Source: Butyrivibrio sp. AE3004 (lineage in GTDB: Bacteria > Bacillota > Clostridia > Lachnospirales > Lachnospiraceae). Taken from it: DNA of 12,915 nucleotides. Both the position numbers and the translations under genes were made by a program. The stretch's first letter is position 1. Each line of letters starts with the position of its first letter. Below the pieces are notes generated by a model. It was not told the DNA's origin, did not search any database, and worked only from the letters and a program-made list of their open reading frames with translations. The stretch lies in assembly GCF_000703165.1 (NCBI RefSeq), contig NZ_JNLQ01000006.1:1-12915 (forward strand). Reading direction: 5' to 3'. Of this stretch, positions 2,345 through 5,389 are shown one piece after another.

Positions 2345-2441
2345 GCTTTTTACGCTCCTTTCATGATTTTTTCGCTGGTTTCCAAAGGGAGCGAGGGCCT
2401 TTGGCGTGGTGCAGGAGCAGAGCTCCTAGACTATTGGACAG

Positions 2442-2480
2442 AGGAAAAAGAAATTATCCAGTGGATGATTTCCTTTTTCT
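2442..2480. repeat. Long inverted repeat, 18-bp stem
   Basis: Bases 2442-2459 pair with 2463-2480 around an AGT loop, with one A/C mismatch and two G-T wobble pairs. The arms are A/G-rich and T/C-rich (GGAAAAAGAAAT against ATTTCCTTTTTC). It lies about 100 bp upstream of the mobC start and could be an oriT arm or a mobC operator; there is no T-run suited to a terminator. Confidence 0.7.
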
Positions 2481-2555
2481 GAAGTCAGGTAGTCGGCTCC
2501 GGTGTGCAGAGGTCTGATAGACCTCGCCGGGGGTTCCAAGGGGGCGAAGCCCATC

Positions 2556-2626
2556 TGGCAAGTTTAGGAAGAGCCGAAAGGCTCCTTCCGGTGCAAATGT
2601 GGCTTGCCACTTTGCGAAACTTGCCA
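2556..2626. other. Three-way-junction inverted-repeat structure
   Basis: A perfect 10-bp outer stem (TGGCAAGTTT at 2556-2565, AAACTTGCCA at 2617-2626) encloses two hairpins that fill nearly all of the interior. The first (2567-2589) has a GAGCC/GGCTC stem capped by GAAA, extended by GGAA/TTCC past one bulged base. The second (2593-2615) pairs GCAAA with TTTGC and GTGG with CCAC. Only about five bases are left unpaired at the junction. The compactness suggests selection for a fold, as single-stranded DNA during transfer or as RNA. A GAAA loop closed by C-G is a stable GNRA tetraloop if the plus strand is transcribed. Confidence 0.65.
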
Positions 2627-2796
2627 TATTTTTCCATCGCCGATATGGCATTCAGTGTAGGGTCGGCTCGGCGGGCGATGGGGAAATATGTGGTCTTGCG
2701 ATTTGCCCGGGCGAGAGATACCGATGCAGGGATGGAGAATGCTGCTATAGCTTCCGGCAGGAAGTAATAGTAGTATTCTTCATCTCTGTAAACAAA

Positions 2797-2833
2797 GAAG
2801 GAGCAAACAGTCCAGTGAACTATTTGCCCCTTC
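2797..2833. repeat. Imperfect 15-position hairpin
   Basis: GAAGG, GCAAA and AGT on the left arm pair with ACT, TTTGC and CCTTC on the right arm, separated by two single A/C mismatches, around a 7-nt loop. It is one unit of the hairpin series between the parR-like gene and mobC. Confidence 0.6.
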
Positions 2834-2863
2834 GAAGTGATCAGGTATCGAACGAACCGGGAA

Positions 2864-2900
2864 GAAATGAAATCGGTGCGAACTGCGCCGATTTCATTTC
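2864..2900. repeat. Near-perfect 16-bp hairpin
   Basis: GAAATGAAATCGGTGC (2864-2879) pairs with GCGCCGATTTCATTTC (2885-2900), with only one T-G wobble, around the loop GAACT. It is the strongest single stem in the window. Neither strand has a T-run after it, so it is not an ordinary terminator. It lies about 90 bp past the parR-like stop codon. Confidence 0.75.
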
Positions 2901-2936
2901 TGGTAAATCGCCTTGCTCCCATGAGCAAGAAATGTT

Positions 2937-2989
2937 TGGCATCAATCTGATGCCATATGAATTTTATGGGTGGCACCAAAGTGATGCCA
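2937..2989. repeat. Paired small hairpins with repeated GATGCCA
   Basis: TGGCATC (2937-2943) pairs with GATGCCA (2949-2955). A second, weaker hairpin pairs TGGCA (2971-2975) with TGCCA (2985-2989) and repeats GATGCCA at 2983-2989. They lie immediately past the parR-like stop. They could be part of the transcript end or binding sites for the ParR-like protein; the sequence does not decide between these. Confidence 0.5.
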
Positions 2990-2991
2990 TC

Positions 2992-3351
2992 TTAAAATTC
3001 ATCAAGAAAGCTAAGAGCATCTTCACTGACAGCCCTATATTCATCTGTGAGTGATGAATCCTTGGAGATTGCTGTTGTAATGTCTCTGGTTTCACAGGCA
3101 GGTATTTCTTTGATTTGCCTTATACCTGCTTCCAGTTTATTGGTGACCAGATCAGCAATTCTTTCAGCAATCATATTCCATGAACTGGTTTCAATGCTCC
3201 CGGCACTTACTGCTCCCTTGCATATGAGCCTGAGTGCAACTGCATTCTTGGAAATATTTTCCTCCTCAGAAATCCTTTGGAGTAATTCCCAGGCTTCTTT
3301 ATCCTGAGGATTATCCATGCGGAATCTGATGCTTAATCTCTTTTCTGACAT
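2992..3351 (-). CDS. ParR/StbB-like DNA-binding partner of the ParM ATPase
   Basis: A 119-residue protein starts with MSEKRLSIRFRMDNPQDKEA, a beta-strand then helices pattern fitting a ribbon-helix-helix fold (about residues 5-45, including ISKNAVALRLICKGA). It ends with an acidic tail (SEDALSFLDEF), the region which in ParR proteins contacts the actin-like filament. GGAGGTGA precedes the ATG closely. It lies 23 bp downstream of the parM-like gene in the same direction, the usual parM-parR order. By family role it would bind centromere repeats and couple the element's DNA to ParM filaments. Identification rests on context and fold pattern; sequence similarity in this family is low. No clear centromere iterons lie upstream of parM; repeats downstream of this gene are candidates. 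Confidence 0.7.
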   Translation of the reverse strand: MSEKRLSIRFRMDNPQDKEAWELLQRISEEENISKNAVALRLICKGAVSAGSIETSSWNMIAERIADLVTNKLEAGIRQIKEIPACETRDITTAISKDSSLTDEYRAVSEDALSFLDEF

Positions 3352-3374: not shown

Positions 3375-4304
3375 TTACGCGCCCTTCCTCAGTATGTGCT
3401 GTGCGTTGTAGATTTCTTCGTAGCCCTTGGCTGTAGCGCAGATGTCTTCAATGATCTCTACGCTTGAGGTATCATACTTTCCAAAATTTCTGATCAGGCA
3501 TCCTCCGCCTCCAATGATATGGAGCTTAACAAGCTCCGAATCATACTCGTATTCACTGAGCTTATCGAAGATCATTTCAGTATATTTGACCGCCTCCCTG
3601 TGCATGACAGCCTGAATCCTTTCTGACACTTCAGACGTTCCACTTATTAGAAAGTCTTCAATAACGCTCTCATCAGGAATCTTTCCACATTCAGCCTGTA
3701 CTTCATTCATGATTTTTTTTACACACTCATGAACACCAATCTTATCGGTATATTTTTTGTCAGAGACTGGTCGGCCATTAGTGATGACCAGTGTGTTCAT
3801 TGTTCCATTTCCGATATCTGCCAGCATGTGGACTCCTTTATAATCCTGGAGCGAAGCTGCTATAGCCGCATAGCCCTGAGGATAGATCGCCACATCGCAG
3901 ATTCTGATGTGATAATACTGCCCGCAGTATCTGTAACTAACTTCCCTGCTTCTCATCAGGTAATCCCTGAAGGAATCTTTCTGTTTTGACATCCAGTGAA
4001 GCGGAAGCCCAACTGCAAGTATCACATCTGCCGATCTTAAGCCTCTGAGTTCCAGTTCTTTTGCCACAGCAGCCAGAGTAAGGATATAGTAGTCATCGTC
4101 TGCATTCTTATTGGCTATGAATACCTTGTGACTTTCACCGATAACGTAATACATACCGTCAAGCTGCAACACATTTGTTGCTATAGCCGGATCCTCACTG
4201 TACTTCTTAACTCCACTCTTAAATACCGTATTTCTCGTCTTCATGTTTCCATATCCGTGATCAACTCCGATCACTAACTTTCCATCAATATATAAATCTT
4301 TCAT
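3375..4304 (-). CDS. parM: ParM/StbA-family actin-like segregation ATPase
   Basis: A 309-residue protein with the actin-fold nucleotide motifs: phosphate-1 loop GVDHGYGNMKT at residues 13-23, phosphate-2 loop DIGNGT at about 163-168, and adenosine motif IIGGGG at about 263-268. ParM proteins polymerise with ATP to push plasmid copies apart, together with ParR bound to a centromere. The start chosen is the ATG at 4304, which has GGAGG at 10-nt spacing; a TTG at 4313 lies only one base from that GGAGG and is unlikely. Length is close to the family norm. It follows the Rep-like gene by about 35 bp and precedes the parR-like gene by 23 bp, so the three probably form one operon. This module is expected for an element that persists as a circle. 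Confidence 0.9.
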   Translation of the reverse strand: MKDLYIDGKLVIGVDHGYGNMKTRNTVFKSGVKKYSEDPAIATNVLQLDGMYYVIGESHKVFIANKNADDDYYILTLAAVAKELELRGLRSADVILAVGLPLHWMSKQKDSFRDYLMRSREVSYRYCGQYYHIRICDVAIYPQGYAAIAASLQDYKGVHMLADIGNGTMNTLVITNGRPVSDKKYTDKIGVHECVKKIMNEVQAECGKIPDESVIEDFLISGTSEVSERIQAVMHREAVKYTEMIFDKLSEYEYDSELVKLHIIGGGGCLIRNFGKYDTSSVEIIEDICATAKGYEEIYNAQHILRKGA

Positions 4305-4339
4305 ACCTTTCAATCCTCCATTTTTTCTGAAATTTGTTT

Positions 4340-5345: not shown

Positions 5346-5389
5346 TTCGGGACGCAGAGGTCGCAGGTTCAAATCCTGTCACTTCGACT
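5346..5389 (+). other. attP-like core: 3' half of tRNA-Pro(CGG)
   Basis: The segment reads as a tRNA from the anticodon loop onward: loop TTCGGGA (anticodon CGG) at 5346-5352, 3' anticodon stem CGCAG, variable AGGTC, T-stem GCAGG, T-loop TTCAAAT, T-stem CCTGT, acceptor CACTTCG (5380-5386) and discriminator A. The bases before it (CTATA) do not pair with CGCAG, so this is not a functional tRNA gene. Tyrosine integrases commonly use such 3' tRNA segments as attachment cores, with strand exchange at the anticodon loop, so that integration rebuilds the host gene. The integrase gene begins about 140 bp to the right. It was assigned to proline from the CGG anticodon and the TTCGGGACG...GGTCG pattern. 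Confidence 0.8.

Follow-up and report, generated by a model that had tools for sequence, protein, structure and literature searches.

Origins of transfer (oriTs) of the type found in Tn1549, pRJ6 and pRS01, of which Tn1549 and pRS01 belong to the MOBP class, lie upstream of a mobC-relaxase gene pair and carry an inverted repeat just before the cut site, a layout that recurs in the array described here. To our knowledge, the conversion of transferred strands from single-stranded to double-stranded DNA in Gram-positive gut bacteria seems little studied, sso1 of ICEBs1 being the worked example that we have met. The nic sites are given as RYGCTTG/C for Tn1549, CTTG/CA for pRS01 and TGCTTG/CCA for pRJ6, the slash marking the cut (PMC7755788), repeats are placed 8 or 9 nt ahead of the nick in pMV158 and two other relaxase systems (PMC5863519), and sso1 is described as active in an orientation-specific manner, as lying between nicK and ydcS and as resembling the sso of pTA1060 (PMC4595007).

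The stretch of DNA analysed here, referred to as the window, is a whole contig of 12,915 bases from a genome of 4,470,907 bases. It contains a gap of 647 bases (2345-2991) between mobC and an actin/ParR-type operon, with the flanking genes all on the - strand. The neighbours were identified by Pfam as a NikA-like/MobC protein and an actin-like ParM, while the product of the gene called parR gave no Pfam or NCBIfam match and owes its name to position only. The parts of the array and its surroundings, in window coordinates, are as follows.

911-2009, - strand: relaxase, in two reading frames in the contig (1749-2009 and 911-1771) (Pfam Relaxase)
1958-2344, - strand: mobC, NikA-like accessory protein (Pfam)
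2382-2404, 2413-2427, 2442-2480 and 2509-2525, + strand: trailing-side hairpins between mobC and P0 (folding)
2531-2552, + strand: P0, GGGTTCCAAG followed by a short GC hairpin (comparison of relatives, covariation)
2557-2565 with 2617-2625, + strand: P1, outer helix around P2, P3 and the nick (relatives)
2567-2589, + strand: P2, hairpin of variable length, absent in L008-L011 (relatives)
2593-2615, + strand: P3, inverted repeat around a CTTG loop, its end 8 nt short of the expected nick (relatives, covariation)
2616-2625, + strand: nic region GAAACTTG/CC, with the cut expected at 2623/2624 (homology)
2626-2641 with 2674-2689, + strand: P4, helix starting 2 nt past the expected nick (folding, covariation)
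2690-2698, + strand: J motif GTGGTCTTG (family form GTGGTTTTG), between P4 and P5 (aligned loci)
2698-2911, + strand: P5 module, with closing helix 2698-2707/2902-2911 (folding, relatives)
2725-2790, 2797-2833 and 2863-2901, + strand: inner hairpins of the P5 module (expected transferred strand)
2912-2929, + strand: small hairpin between P5 and the parR-side dyads (folding)
2937-2955 and 2971-2989, no strand given: two adjacent dyads beside parR, largely conserved in six close relatives
2992-3351, - strand: ParR-like gene
3375-4313, - strand: actin-like ParM gene (Pfam)
5346-5389, no strand given: attP core of 44 bp, matching both ends of the integrated copy (tRNA-Pro 3' end)

The arms of P1 are GGCAAGTTT and AAACTTGCC, and P3 in the window reads GCAAATGTGG-CTTG-CCACTTTGC. 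The first G of the J motif is able to pair with C2625, P5 begins with the last G of the motif, and both parR and parM lie on the leading side of the expected nick. P3 is likely to be the hairpin that the relaxase recognises, and the dyads at 2937-2989 are possibly a site for ParR or an accessory protein. By eye, three successive hairpins within 2382-2552, between P0 and mobC, resemble variants of one motif, a GC hairpin followed by a TTGGAACCCC-like sequence on the - strand, and they have the same look at the corresponding place in L013, L032, L043 and L044.

The stem-loop array is real. Folded as RNA, 2345-2991 reached -297.1 kcal/mol on the + strand (z -14.2) and -250.6 kcal/mol on the - strand (z -12.3), in each case with 0 of 20 dinucleotide shuffles as good, and folding with DNA parameters gave z values of -13.6 (+) and -12.1 (-), neither run yielding an equally good fold among its 20 shuffles. 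The preliminary description of this DNA had reported consecutive stem-loops with a GC content above that of the flanks; the former are confirmed by folding far below shuffled sequence on both strands and with both parameter sets, and GC content was found to be 0.50 in the array against 0.41 in both mobC and parR and 0.40 in the whole window. The + strand fold contains 13 terminal hairpins with 74% of its bases paired and the - strand fold 14 with 66%, the longest stems comprising 17-19 pairs with few mismatches, together with an imperfect stem of 31 pairs (2725-2755/2760-2790). A simple count of perfect-arm inverted repeats (arm of at least 6, loop of at most 30) is only moderately unusual, at 8 against a mean of 3.8 in 100 shuffles (sd 1.7, maximum 10), and the longest perfect arm is 14, against at most 11 across 100 shuffles. 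Direct repeats fall into seven families, all of them two-copy, and do not form the direct-repeat array of an iteron-type parC; a centromere for ParR, as once suggested, is thus not supported for the whole array and could at most reside in the dyads at 2937-2989.

A protein-coding reading of the array was rejected. All four ORFs examined contain stops in L004, L005, L006 and L012, that is in four of the six close relatives, and some are still open in the closest relatives, L003 and L007; a conserved protein in the open frames, raised earlier as the observation that would count against a structured array, was not found.

The element that carries the array is most likely an integrative mobilizable element, since integrase, relaxase and MobC occur together with an excised-circle junction; att sites and the excised circle were among the features found. 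At this junction, two parts of the contig match a chromosomal integrated copy in permuted order and share 44 bp. The integrated copy (L058 1831-18143) lies at a tRNA-Pro gene, differs from the contig by small indels and carries approximately 3.3 kb that are absent from it, so the contig represents a circle that is incomplete or has been shortened. Among the proteins scanned with Pfam, which came from part of the ORFs, no type IV secretion genes were noticed. The relaxase scored 68.5 bits against the Pfam Relaxase domain, above the curated cut-off of 24.6, and its scores of 39.3 and 38.8 (residues 1-370 of 398, chromosomal copy) lay below the NCBIfam MobP equivalog/subfamily cut-offs of 250 and 200, respectively.

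Several features of gene arrangement were also observed. The relaxase frame, split in the contig, is a single frame of 398 amino acids in the chromosomal copy, where it overlaps the next gene (L058 5211-6407 and 6007-7122). The overlaps between relaxase and next gene in L058, L077, L079 and L080 measure 401, 449, 500 and 602 bases, and two overlapping long ORFs recur in three distant elements (L077 15812-17699, L079 13192-15202 and L080 11962-14032). The gene after the relaxase encodes DUF6040 in the window and in L077. In L078 (490-3468), a relative from another genus, the actin-like gene is accompanied by a DUF5906/D5-type protein and not by the HTH_36 protein of the window, and in L008, upstream of the oriT, an actin-like gene directly precedes the array by eye, with no ParR-like gene between them.

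A related MobC is encoded in ten named loci labelled Butyrivibrio or Lachnospiraceae, six of which (L003, L004, L005, L006, L007 and L012) keep the gene order rep-parM-parR-mobC-relaxase, with about 660-700 bp between parR and mobC. The relatives share an anatomy on the + strand that consists of P0, P1, P2, P3, a nic site of GAAACTTG/CC or a close variant, and P4, followed in most compared loci by a GTGGTTTTG-type motif and P5. Common to them is a MOBP-type nic site near GCGAAACTTG/CC placed 8 nt past P3, and P4 starts 2-3 nt past the expected nick in aligned loci. An oriT had been proposed earlier from the location upstream of mobC-relaxase, and this proposal is strengthened by a conserved CTTG/CC nic-type site 8 nt past an inverted repeat, near the same gene pair in other genomes of the family.

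Pairing was assessed in an alignment of 17 sequences (A2), in which the named P0-P4 structure comprises 33 pairs. Paired cells made up 97.4% in A2 against 87.1% after shuffling, 14 of the 33 pairs showed double changes against 7.8 in shuffles, and sliding the partner by 1-3 columns reduced pairing to 39-49%. Covariation of stems in homologous mobC-upstream regions, the check suggested in the preliminary description, was found: the score was 0.299, shuffles gave 0.109 and none of 500 reached the observed value. Further pair types were not unusually numerous (23 against 21.3, with 97 of 500 shuffles as high). By helix, double changes occurred at 2 of 3 pairs in P0, 0 of 9 in P1, 1 of 3 in P2, 3 of 9 in P3 and 8 of 9 in P4. 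Covariation is strong in P4 and also seen in P0 and P3, but there is almost none in P1, whose pairing is weakly tested because P1 hardly varies.

A covariance model, R1, was built from A2 and matched nine loci outside the training set (L003, L007, L021, L022, L023, L043, L044, L045 and L053) with E values from 5.8e-42 to 1.3e-5; three of these closely resemble a known member, L003 and L007 the window and L022 the training-set locus L024, while the other six are distant. L046 and L047 were also matched, with scores like that of L045, and no match was obtained in L026, L048-L052 or L054-L057. The match in L053 has a poor P4 and lacks the J motif, and this locus may be a partial relative only. 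In 26 aligned loci (29 R1 rows minus three opposite-strand rows from L008-L010, where P3 is palindromic), P4 comprised 211 Watson-Crick cells, 17 wobbles on the + strand, 3 wobbles on the - strand only and 3 others, with double changes at 9 of 9 modelled pairs; the A2 counts are the cleaner test, because alignments fitted by a model lean towards the structure of that model.

The distribution was surveyed at several levels. A MobC match (E of at most 0.001, many of them weak) was present in 63 of 397 sampled Lachnospiraceae genomes, the DNA of the array gap matched 13 of 299 family genomes and the P3 plus nic core pattern occurred in 15 of 397, the latter two counts including the genome of the window. 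Class-wide, the core pattern was found in two of 391 genomes, namely its own and one of the same family, and R1 in one of 291, its own, with stricter filters and few family genomes in the sample. No DNA match to 2480-2995 was obtained in plasmid and phage collections and no match to the exact core pattern in IMG/VR; three distant MobC relatives (approximately 30% identity) were found in Phocaeicola and Bacteroides plasmids. In the class-wide samples, the core pattern and R1 were seen within the Lachnospiraceae only.

The J motif, of GTGG type, is present in 23 of the 26 aligned loci and absent in L021, L023 and L053, and it starts +53 to +130 nt from the nick, beyond a variable insert in P4. 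P5 was sought as a helix starting at most 3 nt from the last base of the motif in 21 loci, 19 with the motif and two, L021 and L023, without it. Against 60 shuffles, none was as good as the observed helix in 12 of the 19 loci, 1-3 were as good in six, and 11 in L044, so that in 18 of the 19 loci, which are non-independent within groups, at most 3 of 60 shuffles equal P5, whereas P5 is not significant in L044. The arms of P5 vary widely between lineages (GTGGTGCA, GTCTGTAGCTGCCA and GTGATTTTTC, for example), which supports pairing. P5 spans 83-88 nt in five of the eight motif-bearing groups and 60 nt in that of L008; in L013 and the group of the window, the span is 212-216 nt. Since L021 and L023 keep the core oriT (P0-P4) without the J motif, and P5 is not significant in L044, the leading cassette is inessential to this relaxase group. 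Separately, a pairing between the J motif and the nic or P3 region was weighed and dropped, as group A, L015, L022 and L024 misfit by eye.

These observations bear on whether the whole array might be a relaxosome or termination device, in which P4 and P5 are required for cutting, for holding and rejoining the strand ends or for contact with the coupling protein, without any priming; we regard this as rather unlikely. The start of P4 so close behind the expected nick fits such a device, as does P1, which spans the nick such that the folded strand would hold both ends together, and the R64 oriT is cited as having two sets of repeats with termination roles (PMC4652767, PMC5863519) and the oriT of MobM as switching between hairpins (PMC5863519). 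However, P5 lies behind a J motif whose start is 53-130 nt past the nick and beyond the variable P4 insert, and the motif is missing from two loci that retain P0-P4.

G.T pairs are tolerated on a folding strand, and on the opposite strand the same positions are A.C mismatches. Such wobbles were counted in stems where both mismatch types were scored alike, using the first locus of each of 10 groups. The leading 300 nt gave 49 wobbles on the + strand against 19 on the - strand (raw P 0.0004 against one half), the trailing 280 nt 45 against 16 (raw P 0.0003) and a control stretch 37 against 26 (raw P 0.21); the raw P values overstate the case, because composition alone predicts a + share of 0.37-0.67 in the leading part, whereas 0.5 was assumed in the binomial tests. 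Within groups C and D, the remaining members differ from the loci that entered these totals, and the + lean is absent from the leading region of L014 (3:4), L015 (4:7), L017 (5:7), L009 (4:4) and L023 (0:4). In a stricter count, confined to pairs that both window folds contain, the lean was small, with 40 + and 27 - wobble cells in six relatives. The fold z of the leading 300 nt was lower on the + strand in 17 of 19 loci, with L015 tied and L043 reversed, the margin being at most 0.5 in six of the 17 (40 shuffles per strand), and raw folding energy was lower on the - strand in five of 19 (L014, L015, L017, L018 and L023). Taken together, this points to the + strand as the folding strand, although not strongly in every lineage. 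The structure would then lie on the transferred strand, the polarity of transfer being assigned from the nick placed by homology.

The hairpins might instead be double-strand protein sites or cruciforms, bound by MobC or ParR, or belong to a - strand RNA as a mobC leader or parR terminator. Terminator-like - strand sites do occur below parR (2955-2937 and 2833-2797), the dyads stand beside that gene and folding is good on both strands. This explanation is already weakened, and we consider it very improbable: the covarying arms of P4 are split by inserts of very different length, unlike a dimer site, the wobbles lean to the + and not to the - strand, and direct repeats are two-copy only.

The + strand wobble pattern fits an RNA made from the + strand equally well. 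A structured RNA that acts in transfer, like the sgm-sRNA of SGI1, would also be in keeping with promoter-like + strand matches at 2013-2041 (inside mobC), 2604-2632 (overlapping P3 and P4) and 2970-2998, with a terminator-like hairpin on the + strand at 2937-2955 and with the sgm-sRNA itself, which PMC9299015 places between mpsA and the SGI1 oriT and describes as required for mobilization. Nevertheless, promoter-like matches (4 in all against 1.8, sd 1.3) and terminator-like matches (4 against 2.0, sd 1.8) are near chance and helix P4 is tied to the nic site, and we judge such an RNA improbable. Rfam provided no support either: no family reached the gathering score in the window, where a permissive scan returned sub-threshold matches only, and the sole match in 20 other loci was an unrelated tRNA in L021. 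For this reason, the earlier suggestion of an RNA of the ROOL/GOLLD kind is unsupported. Of the additional roles proposed in the preliminary description, one on single-stranded DNA fits best, given that covariation is seen before and after the expected nick and that the wobbles lean to +; the ROOL/GOLLD RNA and the whole-array centromere were not supported.

On balance, the array is probably an extended oriT in which the leading end of the transferred strand is under selection for folding. This estimate overlaps with that for the relaxosome-only device through the oriT part that both share, and the two do not add up to one. Computation established the shared anatomy, covariation mainly in P4 and also in P0 and P3, a P5 helix in nearly all motif-bearing loci and the + wobble lean. 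From homology we infer the cut at 2623/2624, and the + strand polarity and the priming role are proposed. A cut at GAAACTTG/CC would mean that the + strand is transferred, with 2624-2991 entering first and mobC-relaxase last. Most likely, a MOBP-type relaxase would recognise hairpin P3 and cut the + strand at this site, whereupon the strand would leave with its 5' end first and 2624-2991 would form the first few hundred bases to reach the recipient. This leading end would fold as a single strand into P4, the GTGGTTTTG-type motif and P5 with its inner hairpins, under selection, while P0-P3 on the trailing side would be where the relaxase binds, cuts and rejoins the strand. The most likely job of the leading end would be that of an sso/ssi-like initiation site, which recruits the priming machinery of the recipient after strand entry and re-closure.

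The priming step taken alone, in which P4-J-P5 would start the complementary strand, is put forward tentatively. Three points favour it: the cassette occupies a position from which synthesis of a complementary strand could begin after re-closure of the circle, sites of this kind are known on transferable elements (ICEBs1 sso1, Frpo), and retention of P0-P4 without the J motif in L021 and L023 suggests a separable module. With similar reserve, P4-GTGGTTTTG-P5 may be an undescribed class of single-strand initiation site located directly after the nick in MOBP-type elements of the family, with the imperfect hairpin as loading site for the priming machinery of the recipient. In the literature searched, mostly open-access papers, we recognised no description of a covarying nick-linked structure. 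Such a conserved structure offers a well-delimited target for deletion or inversion, and model R1 a means of finding oriTs of this type in unannotated elements of gut and rumen bacteria.

Among known systems, the large multi-branched ROOL/GOLLD RNAs are of the same size class as the array, which has no Rfam match. The sgm-sRNA of SGI1 and the array are both transfer-related noncoding sequence beside an oriT, but the former is a known transcript of an unrelated mobilization module (PMC9299015), whereas the array is known here as DNA sequence. With Frpo/ssi single-strand promoters, as described in PMC11541004, the array has in common its place in the leading region, folding of the strand expected to be transferred and neighbouring genes on the strand templated by it; in contrast to Frpo, no canonical -35/-10 pair was found in its hairpins, none standing out in the window and no sigma-70 promoter being seen by eye in the P5 hairpins of relatives. 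ICEBs1 sso1 and the array are both stem-loops on a transferable element, likened by features and not by sequence; sso1 lies between nicK and ydcS, the array right past the expected nick, and the strand bias of the array would predict an orientation specificity like that described for sso1. With the Gram-positive MOBP oriTs of Tn1549, pRJ6 and pRS01, the array shares the CTTG/C site. Compared by nic site and layout, the array differs from them in its covarying helix immediately behind the nick, in the GTGGTTTTG-type motif and P5 that follow, and in a relaxase far below the NCBIfam MobP cut-offs.
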